Shown here piece by piece: positions 9,091 through 26,410 of a DNA stretch of 27,565 bases. Source of the DNA: a virus; the IMG/VR virus record IMGVR_UViG_3300042914_001312, positions 1 through 27,565 of that record. One strand, given 5' to 3'. The notes under the pieces are model-generated. The model made no database searches. It was given only the letters and a program-made list of their open reading frames with translations, and was not told the origin of the DNA. The stretch's first letter is position 1, and each line of letters begins with the position of its first letter. The position numbers and the translations under genes were made by a program.

Positions 9091-11160
9091 TTATTTTTTC
9101 TTGTATGCAGTTCCATTCTTTCCCCATACTGGATTGGATGGAAGGAATCCATTGTACTTCTGGTCAAAGGGAATCTTTGCAACTCTTGCATCATTCCTCA
9201 CCTTGTATCCCATCTTCTCTGCTTTGGCAACTGCAATCCTCTTTGCTGATGGAGATTCCAAGTCAATCTTTGCTACTCTGCTGGAGATGTACACTTCCTT
9301 TTGCCAGAAGTGATAGCAGTTTCCTCCTCCTTTATAGAGCATATGTTGCTGATTATCAGTATGTTGGCACTGCTTTGTCAACCAGATTGAGTATGTGTCT
9401 TCACCATATGCTCCCCATCCAGAGTTCACTACTTTGTTCTCCATTGCTTCTATATCCTCTTTGCGATATAGCAAGTCAGCACTCATCATCTTCTTGCAGA
9501 ATGGTCTCTGTGGTTCTGGGTCTCCTCTGTATCTGTATCTGGTGATGAAGAGTTTGTTGTTCATCCTCTTGTCCTGTTCAGATATTTGATTGGGAGTTCC
9601 CTTGACTACTCTGGTTGCAAGTTCATGTGACTCTATTGACTCAAGAAGTTGGTTGTCTTCATCATCAGTATCATAGTCAACCTTGAATTCATCAATCAGA
9701 ATCCAATCAGCATCTGGTTTCTCACCAAGAGCAATCAACACATCAGCAGAATCATCAAGATTGAGTCTCTCAGTTTCTACTTTTTTTTTTCCAGACAGAT
9801 GATGCATCAGAGTCTGGAGTGAATTCATTGCAATCTCACTTGGATTCACACTACCAGCAGAGATTCCTGTGAAGATATCTTCAACTTGTTGGTCTGTCAA
9901 TGTCGGGAATGATGCTTTCATGACTGCTTTTGCAGAAGGAACAGGAAGAACACCAGTTGCAGACTGAATGAGTATCTCAATCATGCTGGATATTTGCGCT
10001 CCATTGAGAGCAGTACCAGCAACATCACCACCACCAGATGCTTGTGCTTCATCTGCTATCATTGCTTGAGTCTTCAATGGTGTGTTTGGTACAATCACCA
10101 GTTGAATTCCTTGCATCTCTACAGATAGAATCTCTTCAAGTCCATCAGTCACCTTCCTCTGTGCTGGTTCAATCACTTGATTGATGAAGATTTGGAGACC
10201 AGTCTCCATCTCATCCTTGTTGCTACCAAAACCAGTATTGTCTCTGATACCAAAGAGCAGAGGAGTAGTGATTCTGTGAGCAATCATCACTTCCTTTCTG
10301 GAAGATTCACTCAAGAATTCATACTGCTTGTCTGCATCTTGAATCGGAAATGGAATCACATCTACTTTCTGAGTATCTGGTTCATTGAATGTCATGATGA
10401 ACTTTCCAGCATTCCTTGCTCCAGACAATTTGTTCTCCCAGTCTTGCATCATCTTCCTCTGTTTCTCTGGGTCTGTTTCACCATTGTAGAAGTTGACAAT
10501 GAATGATGGGAATAGACCAGAAAGAATGTTGGAACAATGGTAGATTCCAATCTGCTTTGATAGTTCAATGTAGTTGACTGCACTCCAGTAGTCTGGTCTT
10601 GGATAGATTTGACCAGATGTGTAGTTGAAGCACCAGTACATCTGTCTTCCCTCTGTTGACTTCTTCAGAGGATTGAATCTGGGAATGAATACTGGTTTGT
10701 TTTTCTTCTTCTTTGTAGCAGACCAGTCATCACTATGGTATACACCAATGATGTCTTCAGACTCTGTATCAATTCCAATTCTACATTCCTCAAAAGGGAT
10801 GTGCTTAATCTTTGCAATACCAGATTTGTCAAGTGTGTAGATGACTTCAATGTAGTATCCACCATACTTCTTCAAGTCATGTGATGCACCATATGAAACA
10901 TTGTAGGTATCCAAAGAATCTACTCTTGTTTGATATGCTCCAGCATGAATTGCCTTCCCAGCAATCATGTCACCGATAGAGATACATAGTGAACCATGAA
11001 CTGGAGATGTCTCTGATAGTTCCCTCAAGTAATTTGGGAAGAGATTCCTTTCTCCAAAGTTCACCCATCCTCCTCTATCTGCTTTCTCAGTAGTTAGAAC
11101 AGGAGAGTAGTCACTCAACTTGAGTGATACTACATTTGTATTTGTTGTCTTCTCATCCAT
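9091..11160 (-). CDS. Portal protein fused to a MuF-like head morphogenesis domain, 689 aa
   Basis: The N-terminal ~455 residues are portal-like: VNFGERNLFPNYLREL, GSLCISIGDMIAGKAI, GGYYIEVIYT, a stem/wing region with ILSGLFPSFIVNFYNG, then RITTPLLFGIRDNTGFG and a C-terminal helical clip/crown part. From about residue 540 a second domain appears: RPFCKKMMSADLLYRKEDI, then YKGGGNCYHFW. This is the Cys/His pattern of MuF/SPP1 gp7-like minor head proteins. Portal and MuF are usually separate genes, so this is a fusion. The linker (residues 457-461, GKKKV) is encoded by a run of ten A residues. The portal forms the dodecameric DNA gate, and the MuF part is usually a minor internal head component. 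It overlaps the upstream structural gene by 8 bases. Confidence 0.88.
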   Translation of the reverse strand: MDEKTTNTNVVSLKLSDYSPVLTTEKADRGGWVNFGERNLFPNYLRELSETSPVHGSLCISIGDMIAGKAIHAGAYQTRVDSLDTYNVSYGASHDLKKYGGYYIEVIYTLDKSGIAKIKHIPFEECRIGIDTESEDIIGVYHSDDWSATKKKKNKPVFIPRFNPLKKSTEGRQMYWCFNYTSGQIYPRPDYWSAVNYIELSKQIGIYHCSNILSGLFPSFIVNFYNGETDPEKQRKMMQDWENKLSGARNAGKFIMTFNEPDTQKVDVIPFPIQDADKQYEFLSESSRKEVMIAHRITTPLLFGIRDNTGFGSNKDEMETGLQIFINQVIEPAQRKVTDGLEEILSVEMQGIQLVIVPNTPLKTQAMIADEAQASGGGDVAGTALNGAQISSMIEILIQSATGVLPVPSAKAVMKASFPTLTDQQVEDIFTGISAGSVNPSEIAMNSLQTLMHHLSGKKKVETERLNLDDSADVLIALGEKPDADWILIDEFKVDYDTDDEDNQLLESIESHELATRVVKGTPNQISEQDKRMNNKLFITRYRYRGDPEPQRPFCKKMMSADLLYRKEDIEAMENKVVNSGWGAYGEDTYSIWLTKQCQHTDNQQHMLYKGGGNCYHFWQKEVYISSRVAKIDLESPSAKRIAVAKAEKMGYKVRNDARVAKIPFDQKYNGFLPSNPVWGKNGTAYKKK
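9781..9790 (-). other. A10 homopolymer at the portal/MuF junction (possible slippage site)
   Basis: Ten consecutive A residues on the coding strand encode Lys 458-460, just between the portal and MuF domains. Adding one A gives S-R-N-stop; removing one gives an immediate TAG. Either shift would release a portal of about 460 residues, a normal portal length. Confidence 0.5.
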
Positions 11161-14542: not shown

Positions 14543-16996
14543 CTATTTTATTCTTGCTAAATTCTCAACTTTTTCTCTTGCTTCTGTAGCAGATGCAACA
14601 TCACCAGCAAGCACATATGCTGGAGTGATTTGGTCTGGTCTATTGTTGATGAAGTCTGTCACCAATGGATTGAATTGAGCAGAAGAGTTTGTTGTTCCTG
14701 TTGTCTCTCCTCCTCCACTACCCATGCTACCACCACCACCACCAGAAGATGGTGTGGTTGTGCTTCCTCCTTCATATTGTGTTTTTGCAATCTTTGCAAT
14801 GTTTGCAAGTCCAGCACCTACTGCAATACCAGCAGCAATGGTTGCTCTCACAGGAGAAGTCACATCACCAACTACCAATTGTGAACCATATGCTTTTGTT
14901 GCAGATGCATATGTGTCGGCAGTTGCTTGAGCAATCTGGAGTGCTTTGTTTCTCTTGAATGCTTTCTTCCTTCCTTGCTCTGTCTTCTGTTCGCCCAAGT
15001 CACTCAATGAAGTCAGCAAGTTGATGCTCATGTTTGCCCATTCTACTTGTTGGTCTACTCTTCTTTGTCTCTCTTCCATTTCTATGAGAGTCTTGTTCTG
15101 CTCATACTTTTTGGTCAAGTCAGTAGTATCAATTTGATACTGCTCCATCATAGTCTTCTCTGCAAAGTATTGCTCCTCCAGTTGCTGGAGTTTCAATTCA
15201 TGCTCTGTCTTCCCAGCATCCAAAGACATTTGGAAGTACATCTCTTCTTCTGCAATTTGCTCTTGCATGATTTGAGTCTGCAATTGTTGTCTCTCCTTGA
15301 CTCCTTCCTGTTGAATGTCTGTGATTTTTTTCTGCATCTCTTTCTCAAGAGCAACATAGTCCATTCCCAAATCTTTGGCATTCTCAATCAATGTGAAGTA
15401 TTCATCTCTGATTGCTTCAATTCTGATGTCCTTGTCAGACATCTTTGCTCTTCTGATTCTCTCAGTCAAGTCTTCTTCCATTGCAATCTCTTCATTCATC
15501 TGAGTTTCCTTTGCTGCTTTCAATGCATCGGCAATCTCTTTGGCATCTGCTTTCTTTTTGTCCTTTGCTGCTTTTCCTTTGTCTGCATCTTCCTTTGCAA
15601 ATTGTGCATTCAACTTTCTCTCTTCCTCATTTCGGACTGCATTCAATTGACCAAGCATCTCTTGTGTTGCACCAAGTTCTATCAACTTCTTCTCTTGGTC
15701 ATCAAATGAATTCTTCAAGTCATCAGATGCTTTCTGTCTTGCAGTCATACCAACTTGATTGAATCTTCTCTCCAAGTCAAAGGATGCTTGGTTGAGAGCA
15801 TTGATTCTCTCAATCTTCAATAGTTCAAGTTCAACTTCCAAGTCTGCTTTCCTCTTCCTTGCATCAGTCAACTGCTTGAACTGGTCTTCTGTCATCTTTG
15901 TACCAGTCTTCTCTTGGTCTAAGATTGCAAGTACCTTCCTTGCGTTATCTGCTTGCTCTGCTCTATTTGCAGAGAGTCTTGCTTCATATACTTTCTGTGC
16001 ATTCCCTTGTGCATCTGCAAGCATCAACTTCTCATCTCTCTTCCTTGCTTCAGCATTGACATCAATCATCTTCAGCATTCTATCGGTTGACTCTTGAACA
16101 TTCTTCTCAGCAACTTTGAATGCCATGTAGATTGCAGTTCCAGCAAGAGCAATTGCAGTCAATATCAAGACTACTGGATTGGACATGATTGCAGTTGCCA
16201 ATCCCCAGAATGCTTTTGCAGAGTCCTTGATTCCTCCTGTGAATTCTTTCCATCCAACACTTTTGATACTAACAGAGAGTCCTTTGGTTGCTTGAGTGAA
16301 TCCCTCAAAGTCCAAGTTGGTCAATCTCTCCTTCATCAATGCAAGTCCACCAGAAGTCTGTTCAAGTGAACTACCTGCTCTTGCACCAACTTCCTCATTG
16401 AAGTCCTTTGCTTTGTCCTTCAGTTCTGCAAGTTCTTTGGACATATCATTGAACTGCTGACTTCCTTGTGGAATCTTTCCAGATAGAAGTTCATTCTGAA
16501 GTTCTTTGATTTGTTGTCTGAGAGTCTTGACTGGTTGGACTACTGGGTCAATCTTTCCTCCCAGATTGGTGAATTCATCTGCAACTTTTCTATATTGCTC
16601 TGAATCTGGTGCAAGTCCATCAAGTTGTTCTTTGAGATTCTTGAGTCTTGCTCCTGTCAATTCCGATACACTTCCTCCCAGTTCAATGTAGGTTGCATTG
16701 AGTTGCTTCCATTCCTCAGTATTTGGGTCTGTAGTAGAAAGAGTATTCTTCAAGTCTTTGAGTCCACCATTCAAGACTTTTGCATTCCCTCCCAAATCTG
16801 AATACTGCTTTGCAAGTTCTTGCCATTGCTTTGTCTTTGGGTCAAGAGTCCTCAGAGACTTTGCCAAATCATTGATTTGCTTTTCTGTATTATCTGCTGC
16901 TTCACCAGTTTTGTCCAATGCTTTTGTCACTCCATCAATTGAGGAGATTGCACCAGCACTATCAATGGATATCTTGACTTGGTATTCTTTTGCCAT
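14543..16996 (-). CDS. Tail tape measure protein, 817 aa
   Basis: Sets tail length and is threaded inside the tube. Features in order: N-terminal MAKEYQVKISIDSAGAISSI; three imperfect repeats at about residues 40-155 built on L-x-x-L-dP-x-t-x-x-W-x-x-L-x-x-x-Y-x-x-LGG; a helical region; a hydrophobic segment near residues 265-295 (IMSNPVVLILTAIALAGTAI) expected of tape measures; long charged coiled coils at about 310-640; an Ala/Gly-rich region (TIAAGIAVGAGLANIAKIAK); and a Gly/Ser/Thr linker near the end. Using the known ~1.5 angstrom per residue rule, 817 residues suggest a tail of roughly 120 nm, which supports a siphovirus. It follows the 59-residue membrane protein gene by one base. Confidence 0.92.
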   Translation of the reverse strand: MAKEYQVKISIDSAGAISSIDGVTKALDKTGEAADNTEKQINDLAKSLRTLDPKTKQWQELAKQYSDLGGNAKVLNGGLKDLKNTLSTTDPNTEEWKQLNATYIELGGSVSELTGARLKNLKEQLDGLAPDSEQYRKVADEFTNLGGKIDPVVQPVKTLRQQIKELQNELLSGKIPQGSQQFNDMSKELAELKDKAKDFNEEVGARAGSSLEQTSGGLALMKERLTNLDFEGFTQATKGLSVSIKSVGWKEFTGGIKDSAKAFWGLATAIMSNPVVLILTAIALAGTAIYMAFKVAEKNVQESTDRMLKMIDVNAEARKRDEKLMLADAQGNAQKVYEARLSANRAEQADNARKVLAILDQEKTGTKMTEDQFKQLTDARKRKADLEVELELLKIERINALNQASFDLERRFNQVGMTARQKASDDLKNSFDDQEKKLIELGATQEMLGQLNAVRNEEERKLNAQFAKEDADKGKAAKDKKKADAKEIADALKAAKETQMNEEIAMEEDLTERIRRAKMSDKDIRIEAIRDEYFTLIENAKDLGMDYVALEKEMQKKITDIQQEGVKERQQLQTQIMQEQIAEEEMYFQMSLDAGKTEHELKLQQLEEQYFAEKTMMEQYQIDTTDLTKKYEQNKTLIEMEERQRRVDQQVEWANMSINLLTSLSDLGEQKTEQGRKKAFKRNKALQIAQATADTYASATKAYGSQLVVGDVTSPVRATIAAGIAVGAGLANIAKIAKTQYEGGSTTTPSSGGGGGSMGSGGGETTGTTNSSAQFNPLVTDFINNRPDQITPAYVLAGDVASATEAREKVENLARIK

Positions 16997-22235: not shown

Positions 22236-22805
22236 CTATTTGATGTATTTGTCTGACTTCAATTGTTTCTCTATGTCTTGGATGATTGCCGATATCATGC
22301 TATCATCAAACTCTTCCAGAGCATCATCTATTGCTTCTTGGAAGTAGTGGATTCCTTTGATTCCTTTGATGCCTATACTCTTGGACATCCTCCTTGCTAC
22401 CAGAAGAAGTTCATCTTCTCTATCCTTTGGTTTGGTTGCTCTCTTCTTGAATTGACTTCTCCTCATCACATTCTCAGAGTCAACATTCCTCAATCGTATC
22501 TTCTTCAACTTTATCCATTCAAGGATTGGTTGAATTGGTGGTGGAGTAGAGTTTGGTCTTCTACCTTCTTCAATCACATCAGCATACTCTCTTGTCTCTT
22601 TGGAGTTAGTGGTGAAGATGATGACATCTGTCTTCCCTCTCTTCCATAGTCTGTATGTCAATGAGTCTCTGAGTTTCCCAGATGCTACTCTCCTTCTCTT
22701 CTTTCCATCAATGGTTCTATCAATCTGCAAGTTGCTCCTTGCAAGTTCAACTGCTCTCAATCCAAACTCATTGAGCATCTTTCTCAGTTCAGTCAATTCT
22801 CCCAT
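22236..22805 (-). CDS. HK97 gp10-like tail completion/neck protein, 189 aa
   Basis: The pattern fits gp10-like tail-completion proteins. It has an N-terminal helix (LRKMLNEFGLRAVELARSNL), basic KKRRRVASGKLRDSLTYRLW, then TREYADVIEEGRRPNSTPPP and ILEWIKLKKIRLRN. The ASGKLRDSL and YADVIEEGR elements are the recognisable parts. The C-terminal half is basic and helical with IGIKGIKGIHYF and an acidic end. Such proteins cap the tail or join it to the head. It begins one base after the stop of the fibre-like gene. Confidence 0.75.
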   Translation of the reverse strand: MGELTELRKMLNEFGLRAVELARSNLQIDRTIDGKKRRRVASGKLRDSLTYRLWKRGKTDVIIFTTNSKETREYADVIEEGRRPNSTPPPIQPILEWIKLKKIRLRNVDSENVMRRSQFKKRATKPKDREDELLLVARRMSKSIGIKGIKGIHYFQEAIDDALEEFDDSMISAIIQDIEKQLKSDKYIK

Positions 22806-22806
22806 C

Positions 22807-25254
22807 TTAGTTGACTCTTATTGCTCTTAGATATGAACCACGAGGACTGAATGATATGGTCTGATTCAATGTGACTGCTGCAAGAGCAAGAGTCAAAGTA
22901 GTAGTGCTTCCAGCAACCACACTACAATATCCTTTGAAGATAGTTGGTGAGAGTGCATTCCTTGTGATGTCATTTGCAAGATATGGTGTGTTTGATGGAA
23001 ACAAAGTTCCACTCCCAAGTGATATGACTTGTCCATTTCGGAATTCTATTTCCGATTGACTACCTTGATAGACTCCATGAAAATTGAGGATTGAACCACT
23101 CCACAAGAATCCTACTCTTGCACCAGATGTTGGGTTGAATGATGCTTGAATTGCCCAACAGGCTTCAATGTAGTATGTTCTATCAGCAGTACCAGAAGGA
23201 AGACTGAGAGATAGATTGCAACTGGTTGCAGTAGTAGCATTGACTTGTACTGGAGCAACTGCTGTTCCTCTTGTGTTCAATGTAGGAATTGATAGACCAT
23301 TGATTTGAGTCTGGATGTTGCTGGTCACTCCATTGAGGAATCCAAATTCAGTATTGTCTATTGTTCCTCCTCCTATACTTGTCGCTGGAATACCAGTAGG
23401 AATATCAGAAGCAAGAAGTGAACCACCACCAGTCACCAATCCTTTTGCATCATATGTTATCTTGGTTGCAGTCTGTGGAGTGATGGGAGTATTTGAAGTC
23501 ACCTTTCCATTCAGTTGTGTTTGAATTGAACTACCGACTCCATCCAAAAAACCAAACTCAGTATTGCTCACTACACCAGTTCCAATTCTTATTGCATCTA
23601 TTCCAAAAGGAATATCCAATGCAGTTATCTGTCCACCAGAAATCACAAGTCCTTTTTCATCATAGACTACTTTGGTTGCAGTTCCCGAAAGGATTGGAGC
23701 ATTTGCATCAACTTTATTTGCATCCAATGTGTCAAGAGCATCAGTCACACTTGCTCCAGATACACCAGATGAATTTGCTACTATGTTGCTCTCCAAAGAT
23801 TGATTCCTCCAGAGTGAACCATCATAGCGTAGAACATCACCATCATTCTCTGATGTAATTCTAACACCATGCAGTTCATTCAGTTCATATCCATTCTGTA
23901 TCTGGATGACTACTCTTCCAAAGTTTGGATGACTCCTTGCAACATATCCAATGAACACACTATGTGCTGGTTCTGCTGGTGGAGTATTTGCTTGAACTTC
24001 TCCAGCAGTCTCACTCAACCAAAGAGTATCACCTTCATTGAAAGCAGATGTGTCCAAGTCATGAAGTGTACCATTGACTGCAATCTGTCCATCAGAATTG
24101 TCTCCAATATCGGCAATCACAAGACCAATTGTCTTTGATGATGTTGCTTCACTTGATGCATCTGCAAGAACTGCATTGGGTCTGTTCCCAGTTGCACCAG
24201 ATAGATAGACAACTTGTCCTTTGAGTAGTGTGCTTCCAGTTGAATTCCTCACCACTATCTGGATTCTCTCAGCACTATCTACCACACCATCTTCATCTGT
24301 ATCATAGACTGCTTTGGTCATGTCACCAATCACAGGAGGGAGTGCTGGTTTGTTCTTGATATAGTCTACTTGAGTATCATCTGTCTGATTCCAATCAGAT
24401 TGAACTTGAGTAGGTACATCAGCAATTGTGATGAATCCACTATCATTGGTCAATTCACTTGTGAGAGTCGGAATGGTTGGTGTGTTTATCAAGTCACCAT
24501 AGTCACCAGAGAATGCTACATCAGCAAGTGATGATGTGTCTGCTTTGAGATTGAGAGCAGATTGCAAGTCTATCTGGTCTGCAAGGATTCCTCCGATTGT
24601 TCCCCAGTTTGTTCCCAAGTCTCCTGTTGCATCAAACTTCACTCTCCCATCACCAAGGTCTGTGATAGTCATGTTTGCTCCTTGCACCAGATTCAAGATG
24701 GTCTGTATGTTGTTCTCAACATTGTTCACCTTCAAGATGAGTGATACTCCTCCTCCTCCTCCAGTTCCTCCACTACCACTACCACCAGCACTCCAGTCTG
24801 CTGGTATCTCACAAGCACTCCAATCCCAAGGGAATGTCATGGTCAATGATAGAGTCACTCCAGTCAACACATGAGTATACTCTTCCATGAATGGAGAGAT
24901 AGATGTTCCTTGCTCAAGTTCTACATCCTCACCAAAGATGATGCTCCCATTCTGAATCTCTGCAAGCAAGTCTTCAGCAAGTCTGATACAATCACTCAAT
25001 GATTCTCTCTGATATTCTGTCTTGTCTTCCTTGTCTCTTGGTAAGTCAGCAAAGATGATGTCAAAGGAGAAGGAGCGAGTTCCAGCAGAAGGATTCATTG
25101 AGACTGGTACTATGTGCATCCAAGGATACAGAGCATCCTTCATGATATCGGTGACATCAATCTGTCCATGTGAGAATCTCTTGATGAGATAGTGACCATC
25201 AGCAAATGCTTTGAATCTCTCTACTACTACATTGTATGATACTTGACTGAACAT
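22807..25254 (-). CDS. Tail-terminator-like domain fused to tail fibre, 815 aa
   Basis: Residues 1-155 (FSQVSYNVVVERFKAFADGH, DALYPWMHIVPVSMN, SFSFDIIFADL, then FPWDWSACEIPADW) resemble small tail-terminator or tail-completion proteins of Bacteroidetes phages, including the acidic LAEDLLAEIQNG helix. A Gly/Ser linker (GGSGSGGTGGGGG, about 160-172) joins a long fibre-like part. That part has N-V-E-N-N-I-Q-T-I-L coiled start, NTPTIPTLTSELTNDSGFIT, a repeat-poor beta region (IQIVVRNSTGSTLLKGQVVY), and two ~65-residue repeats at about 520-655 (YDxKGLVxxGG...NTEFGFLxGVxSxIQTQxNG). The C-terminal ~150 residues are a separate beta-rich domain, likely the receptor-binding tip. Confidence 0.75.
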   Translation of the reverse strand: MFSQVSYNVVVERFKAFADGHYLIKRFSHGQIDVTDIMKDALYPWMHIVPVSMNPSAGTRSFSFDIIFADLPRDKEDKTEYQRESLSDCIRLAEDLLAEIQNGSIIFGEDVELEQGTSISPFMEEYTHVLTGVTLSLTMTFPWDWSACEIPADWSAGGSGSGGTGGGGGVSLILKVNNVENNIQTILNLVQGANMTITDLGDGRVKFDATGDLGTNWGTIGGILADQIDLQSALNLKADTSSLADVAFSGDYGDLINTPTIPTLTSELTNDSGFITIADVPTQVQSDWNQTDDTQVDYIKNKPALPPVIGDMTKAVYDTDEDGVVDSAERIQIVVRNSTGSTLLKGQVVYLSGATGNRPNAVLADASSEATSSKTIGLVIADIGDNSDGQIAVNGTLHDLDTSAFNEGDTLWLSETAGEVQANTPPAEPAHSVFIGYVARSHPNFGRVVIQIQNGYELNELHGVRITSENDGDVLRYDGSLWRNQSLESNIVANSSGVSGASVTDALDTLDANKVDANAPILSGTATKVVYDEKGLVISGGQITALDIPFGIDAIRIGTGVVSNTEFGFLDGVGSSIQTQLNGKVTSNTPITPQTATKITYDAKGLVTGGGSLLASDIPTGIPATSIGGGTIDNTEFGFLNGVTSNIQTQINGLSIPTLNTRGTAVAPVQVNATTATSCNLSLSLPSGTADRTYYIEACWAIQASFNPTSGARVGFLWSGSILNFHGVYQGSQSEIEFRNGQVISLGSGTLFPSNTPYLANDITRNALSPTIFKGYCSVVAGSTTTLTLALAAVTLNQTISFSPRGSYLRAIRVN

Positions 25255-25260
25255 ATTTGT

Positions 25261-26018
25261 CTATCTGTATTGTTGTCTCATTTGTCTTCTTGTCTCTACT
25301 TGATAGTCTCTCATGTAGGATAGATGAGTGAATATCTCTCTTGCATCCTTGTCCAAGATTGCTTTGAACTTAGTGATGTCTCTATCTGCTACTGACTCTA
25401 TGATGTGATACCATCCCCATCTATCAAGTCCGCTTGGTGTGGAAAAGTCTCCATCATCATCATCCTCATTTGCTTGAGTGAACAGGCTTGAGAATTGAGT
25501 AGTGATTCTTTTTCGATAGTCGAAAAAAAAACCAATGCACCATTCACTCTGTCCATAGTCATCTGGTTGATGTACTCAATGTATGTTGGTATGGCATCAC
25601 CAGAGTATGGTTTCAATGTATAGAACTTTCCAACTTTCGCTTCAATTGGTCTGAAGAGGATTGCCATGAGTCTTGGTAGTTCCTTGAAGTTGACTCCTTC
25701 ACTTGTCCATACCTGTTGACTCAATGCATCCAAGTCCACAAACTCTCTGAATGAAAGAGCATTGATGTCTGGGATGAATCCTATGTGCATTCCTCCAGCA
25801 CCAAATGTCTGTTCATGTCTTGGTGTACCAACTTCACAAGCATCATAGAATGACTCATTGATGAAGTCAATTGTCTGGAAGAGCATGGACTCAACTTCTT
25901 CTCTTGACTTCCCAGTTGCAATCATTGCTTTGGTGATGTCTGTCTTTGCACACATGAAGTCCACATACTGCTTCAATGTGATACTATTGTAGTTCTTTGG
26001 GAGTGATACTTCCATCAT
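25261..26018 (-). CDS. Tail assembly chaperone, -1 frameshift product, 252 aa (inferred)
   Basis: If reading slips back one base at the T9 run (25531-25523), the first 165 residues continue into a second frame of 87 codons. This adds FDYRKRITTQFSSLFTQ, an acidic NEDDDDGD, then SGLDRWGWYHIIESVADRDI, KFKAILDKDAREIFTHLSY and a basic end at TAG 25261, six bases before the fibre-fusion ATG. The extension looks far more protein-like than the zero-frame end, and its WGWYHIIESVADRDITKF part matches C-termini I associate with Bacteroidetes phage tail proteins. This arrangement parallels lambda G/GT, whose chaperones are made by a -1 shift. A sequencing error in the homopolymer would also give one long gene; either way this 3' part is coding. 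Confidence 0.75.
25398..26018 (-). CDS. Tail assembly chaperone-like protein, zero-frame form, 206 aa
   Basis: Begins MMEVSLPKNYNSITLKQYVD. The N-terminal ~165 residues (TKAMIATGKSREEVESMLFQ, FIPDINALSFREFVDLDALS, ELPRLMAILFRPI) match small proteins placed before tail genes in Bacteroidetes phages and probably chaperone the tape measure or tail proteins. After the T9 run the zero frame gives STIEKESLLNSQACSLKQMR, four Met in a row and a polar end, which looks like out-of-frame sequence. The start overlaps the stop of the terminase small subunit candidate as ATGA. It is the short-form partner of the frameshifted product. Confidence 0.7.
   Translation of the reverse strand: MMEVSLPKNYNSITLKQYVDFMCAKTDITKAMIATGKSREEVESMLFQTIDFINESFYDACEVGTPRHEQTFGAGGMHIGFIPDINALSFREFVDLDALSQQVWTSEGVNFKELPRLMAILFRPIEAKVGKFYTLKPYSGDAIPTYIEYINQMTMDRVNGALVFFSTIEKESLLNSQACSLKQMRMMMMETFPHQADLIDGDGITS
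25509..25533 (-). other. T9 slippery run overlapping an 8-bp hairpin
   Basis: On the coding strand GG is followed by nine T residues (25531-25523). An 8-bp stem, TTTTTCGA and TCGAAAAA with a CTA loop (25527-25509), shares five of the T residues. The codons are GTT TTT TTT TCG in frame and TTC GAC after a -1 shift. The hairpin may stimulate slippage or simply favour polymerase stuttering. Confidence 0.65.
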
Positions 26019-26410
26019 ATGTTCCCAGCAATTTGAATGATTGGTCTTCCTTCTTCTCCTGTGATTTCTTGTCGCTCAACATATCCTCTCTTCTTTCCTT
26101 TGGTCTTCAGATAGAAGATGGTTGCAGCAGTATTTGGTGCATCCTTTATCTTCATGACTCTACCATTGTTTGCAAGAACTTCCTTCTCTGCTCCATCAAT
26201 TAGTTCAAAGAGTTTCTTCTCTGCAAAGTCAATTGCAAGGTCTGTGATTTCTTGAACTGCAAAAGCATACTCCTCATCTTCCTTCATCCATGTGTGGTGA
26301 GTCCTTGAACTGATTCCACATATCTTGACTGCTTGAGTCACTATCCCCATTGTCTGAGAAAGAGCATTTATCATTGCTTGCTTCCTGTCTTGGTTTTGAT
26401 TTGCTTCCAT
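26015..26410 (-). CDS. terS: Terminase small subunit-like protein, 131 aa
   Basis: Begins MEANQNQDRKQAMINALSQT. The N-terminal helix-turn-helix (GIVTQAVKICGISSRTHHTWMKEDEEY, residues about 22-48, with SSRTHHTWMK as recognition part) is the phBC6A51-like form seen in small terminase subunits. It is followed by a helical oligomerisation region (AIDFAEKKLFELIDGAE) and TAATIFYLKTKGKKRGYVER, a frequent signature in this family. It would recognise the packaging start and recruit the large subunit, which is not in the window. Its start codon lies within a set of 11-bp phased repeats that it may bind. It ends in an ATGA overlap with the chaperone gene. Confidence 0.8.
   Translation of the reverse strand: MEANQNQDRKQAMINALSQTMGIVTQAVKICGISSRTHHTWMKEDEEYAFAVQEITDLAIDFAEKKLFELIDGAEKEVLANNGRVMKIKDAPNTAATIFYLKTKGKKRGYVERQEITGEEGRPIIQIAGNI

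Follow-up and report, generated by a model that had tools for sequence, protein, structure and literature searches.

Comparison of relatives strongly supports the view that a gene of a tailed phage has a genuine −1 shift, conserved among those relatives, at a run of nine T residues (T9), and the data suggest that the shift fits polymerase slippage at T9 better than a ribosomal shift at U_UUU_UUU. The gene lies in IMG/VR record IMGVR_UViG_3300042914_001312, whose analyzed stretch of 27,565 nucleotides is herein called the window; the host probably belongs to the Bacteroidota. To the whole picture, a two-product gene of the packaging/tail region that would be expressed through polymerase slippage and have a chaperone-like role, we give somewhat better than an even chance.

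The zero-frame open reading frame (ORF; 25398..26018, minus strand) runs from an ATG at 26018 to a TAG ending at 25398 and would encode a short product of 206 residues, comprising a conserved domain (residues 1 through 165, up to the T run) and a variable tail. The T9 run occupies 25523..25531 (minus strand) within the codons GTT TTT TTT TCG, which contain an in-phase U_UUU_UUU. The −1 frame extension (25261..25524, minus strand), predicted to form the end of a long product, adds 87 codons after FFF; it begins FDYRKRITTQF, continues through an acidic linker and WGWYHIIESVADRDITKF to FTHLSYMRDYQ, and closes with a TAG at 25263 through 25261, leaving a six-base gap (ACAAAT) before the next ATG at 25254. 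The two frames overlap over 25398..25522 (minus strand), where MMMM in the zero-frame tail lies over acidic DDDD in the −1 frame. The preliminary description had placed the 206-codon frame with its stop at 25398, the T9 run, and the 87-codon −1 frame ending six bases before an ATG at exactly these coordinates. It had also stated that eight or ten T residues would unite the two parts or alter the shift; for uniting them, this is correct for T10 and wrong for T8, the other length that would join them being T7.

Three near relatives in IMG/VR, with 89 to 98% protein identity, are identical in both T9 and the −1 relation. A scan based on the extension yielded 42 loci with identity down to 33%, and T9 is present in all 41 that extend back across the run. 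In the isolated Nonlabens phage P12024S, a homologue of 28.7% identity likewise carries T9, followed by a −1 extension that is not annotated as such. Because selecting for the run itself was to be avoided, queries without it were also used: the N-terminal part (N-part) of the P12024S protein, the C-terminal 70 residues of the extension, and N-parts alone. The same T9 arrangement is found in about 200 loci. When a distinct context is defined as the run plus 60 bases on each side (n = 157), the long partner is in the −1 frame in every context, and the alignment of relatives proposed in the preliminary description shows both the T run and the shift to be conserved, with T9 in 151 contexts, T10 in 6, and neither T7 nor T8 in any. 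Relatives without any shift had been named as one finding that would speak against the idea; the −1 extension is present in all contexts, including those retrieved with N-parts only. The same loci contain 13 other T runs of at least nine in 718,696 bases, and the junction run is present in every relative; T9 at the junction exceeds chance occurrence. As judged from these alignments, run length is preserved across many distantly related phages.

The six T10 contexts (L118, L135, L183, L211, L219, and L224) all have a C flanking the run on both sides, unlike the T9 runs, where G or A is the usual preceding base. In Flavobacterium phage 6H, a weak homologue (L147, 10044-10927, minus strand; E 4e-5) leads into an open −1 frame of 105 codons, but no T9 run is present; this homologue was left out of the evidence. 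Its PHROG profile is 293 long compared with 191 aa for the protein at this locus, and some relatives may therefore be fused. Searches of phage records by tblastn with the N-parts of L045 and L048 and with the window extension gave no matches. Across 395 genomes from the phylum to which G001 belongs, a profile of the N-part matched nothing, a weak result from a scan without a positive control. One alignment (A1) held too much diversity to be used in scanning collections. A scan of genome contigs with degenerate DNA for GFFFDYRK returned ten matches, all due to chance and none homologous.

The run is fixed in length and free in phase. Its first base falls on codon position 1, 2, or 3 in 8, 123, and 26 contexts, respectively, and the flanking bases on either side vary while the run stays constant. 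A quick maximum-likelihood tree was built from 137 N-parts with the run left out. On it, run phase changed at least 10 times (an approximate count, as the tree is a quick one from short proteins), and run length changed on 4 occasions, each time between 9 and 10. The junction therefore carries an A/T run of at least nine that is selected for length and not for phase. A fixed length in all three phases favors a polymerase, since a ribosome needs only T_TTT_TTT in phase. A deletion at the run would open the +1 frame; in all contexts of the first set this frame is shut within 57 nt of the run, while a +1-type frame is still open past 60 nt at 18% of control positions. In vivo, slippage is efficient on runs of nine A/T residues, and RNA polymerase forms an RNA:DNA hybrid of 9 to 10 bp (PMC5009743); in many bacteria, selection against A/T runs begins at nine (PMC1088944). 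The Escherichia coli enzyme is more prone to slip on T than on A, and it makes insertions ∼3 times as often as deletions (PMC6260861), and from this insertion bias the −1 frame is the one expected. We consider transcriptional slippage at T9 the likely mechanism.

Alternatively, ribosomes could make the same products from the same gene by a programmed −1 frameshift at U_UUU_UUU. Lambda G/GT and P2 E/E+E' use this mechanism, which is known for tail assembly chaperones (PMC5009743; P2 annotation) and whose direction matches the −1 shift. Every phase class of T9 holds one in-phase heptamer, which is accordingly present in all contexts, so a ribosome could shift everywhere. However, the heptamer requires just seven Ts in one phase, whereas T7 and T8 are absent and T9 occurs in all three. 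Folding downstream of the run (mean z of −0.55, compared with −0.08 and +0.39 for controls) falls below −2 in a few members, as a ribosomal stimulator might, but no structure common to the members was seen; a search by folding z for RNA structure shared across relatives near the run found none that was consistent. The hairpin pointed out over the run is indeed predicted in the window (11 bp; 25506..25530, minus strand), but it is a local feature of some clades and was rejected as a stimulator because other clades lack it. Of the lambda G/GT-like shift that had been proposed, the conserved −1 shift therefore stands, and the ribosomal mode is less favored given the fixed length, the three phases, and the fact that no common stimulator was seen. 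We regard ribosomal frameshifting as possible but unlikely, and joint use of transcriptional slippage and ribosomal shifting as quite improbable.

Under polymerase slippage, T9 would be read straight in most transcripts, giving the short protein of ∼165 conserved residues and a nonconserved tail. In a fraction of transcripts RNA polymerase would slip on T9 and add one U, and this extra U would lead ribosomes into the −1 frame to make the long protein with its extension of 80 to 90 residues; the length of T9 would set the short:long ratio. If the analogy to lambda gpG/gpGT holds, the tape measure would be coated by the short form and tail tube subunits recruited by the long one.

A tail-assembly-chaperone-like role is plausible. 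The N-part is modeled by AlphaFold with a pLDDT of 90.7; the viral models closest to it represent uncharacterized phage proteins, and chaperones are among the named matches below threshold. The HK97 gp13 tail assembly chaperone (2ob9) is the top match by VIA-align, although weak (Z of 3.5), and a Foldseek search against the PDB gave no significant match. PF10109 (Phage_TAC_7) matches 5 of 23 members weakly (best E 0.0047, under its cut-off) and phrog_166 (tail) matches 7 of the 23; where inspected, both cover the same helical segment (residues 35 through 83). These three signals (PF10109, phrog_166, and 2ob9) are weak but concordant, and an hhalign comparison with a thin, four-sequence alignment of P2 E/Mu gp41 found nothing. 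The extension is modeled, at low confidence, as a helix, a disordered acidic linker, and three helices, with no useful structural match. The identity as a tail assembly chaperone given in the preliminary description is thus plausible in that the three signals agree, even though homology is weak and the structural score low.

The neighborhood leaves room for a different function. Upstream lies a terminase small subunit-like gene (26015..26410, 131 aa; phrog_309, E 2e-8), and downstream are a gene for an 815-aa tail-fiber-like protein (22807..25254; phrog_7389, E 3e-6) and one for a neck/tail completion-like protein (22236..22805; phrog_5, E 4e-5), all on the minus strand. The tape measure gene (14543..16996, minus strand; phrog_9483, E 5e-11) is ∼8.3 kb downstream of the extension with several genes between, and since the two-frame gene is not placed directly before it, we call the product chaperone-like and not a lambda-type member. 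In P12024S, L075, and L116 the two-frame gene follows the terminase large subunit and is itself followed by a phrog_30964-like gene; a neck-like protein is encoded further down in the window and in L075. The position beside terS had been described as unusual, which is true by comparison with lambda but not within this family, where it is the usual one. These neighbors (terminase, a phrog_30964-like gene, and a neck-like protein, but not the tape measure), together with the weak homology to known chaperones, would suit a real slippage gene whose product is some other tail, neck, or packaging factor. Against this, PF10109 and phrog_166 recur among members, HK97 gp13 is the top structural match, and a short product plus extension is the classic chaperone layout; we find such a factor doubtful and retain the chaperone-like reading.

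Several further features of these regions were observed. The slot of the 815-aa protein in the window holds a phrog_30964-like gene of 138 to 177 aa in P12024S, L075, and L116, and the 815-aa protein may therefore have arisen by fusing a short tail gene to a fiber; BLASTP between it and the short genes reaches only E 0.048. In the window's clade, the terminase large subunit is encoded upstream of the terS/chaperone block and on the opposite strand (L003 1325-2620, L012 721-2016, and L016 1002-2297, minus strand); none was seen in the window, which ends before that place. A DNA methyltransferase/ParB-like gene lies upstream of the two-frame gene in L016 (4055-5215) and L022 (2807-3985). Elsewhere in the window, a sense-strand A10 (9781-9790, minus strand) in lysine codons of a 689-aa portal-like ORF is a possible slippage site.

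Substitution patterns indicate that both parts of the gene are under selection. Before the run, 54 to 75% of substitutions fall on zero-frame third positions in six clades. In the overlap after the run, 35 to 56% fall on −1-frame third positions, the commonest class in most clades, with the third-position signal nearly even in clade B; past the zero-frame stop, the −1-frame share is 45 to 82%. At the run, all six clades tested change from zero-frame to −1-frame periodicity, apart from the near-even overlap in clade B. The zero-frame tail varies among relatives in both length and sequence, and the extension conserves a W.W motif and an FTHLSY-type helix. Errors are frequent in homopolymers and the window is a contig from a metagenome, but a mistake in assembly or in homopolymer length, or decay of the gene, has a negligible chance of explaining the frames, given the same T9 in the isolated and sequenced phage P12024S and about 200 loci and a −1 frame under selection.

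Shifts in chaperone genes are textbook ribosomal recoding in phages. If slippage is correct, the present gene would achieve by transcription what lambda-type chaperones achieve by a ribosomal shift, and the same two products made through the polymerase would imply that evolution conserves the ratio while the machinery is interchangeable, as is the case for dnaX (PMC1088944). In the literature searched, we found no description of transcriptional slippage of a tail assembly chaperone. We see an even chance that a large, previously undescribed phage family sets the ratio of two chaperone forms by polymerase slippage at a fixed T9. Length versus phase offers a sequence test that would help to tell the two mechanisms apart with no need for experiments, and many annotations of metagenomic phages, in which the extension is now lost or listed as a separate hypothetical protein, would gain a missing gene product.

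Among known systems, P12024S_38 (phrog_32199, unknown function) is a homologue that shares T9, the −1 extension, and a place beside the terminase; it differs in being annotated as two separate hypothetical proteins with the shift unannotated. Lambda G/GT and P2 E/E+E' resemble the gene in joining a short ORF to a −1 extension across a slippery run and in encoding similarly sized helical proteins among the structural genes of tailed phages, and the chaperone-type layout, a short N-terminal ORF with a conserved −1 extension, is found here. Unlike in those systems, the length of T9 is conserved and its phase free, the gene is terminase-adjacent with the tape measure 8.3 kb off, and neither clear sequence homology nor a conserved stimulator is seen. 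Thermus dnaX (a run of 9 A/T), Shigella mxiE, and Citrobacter tssM1 (A11) likewise have an A/T run of at least nine at the frame junction and two products with no obvious ribosomal stimulator. These are cellular genes for unrelated proteins, whereas ours is a phage morphogenesis-type gene whose run is kept across very divergent relatives.
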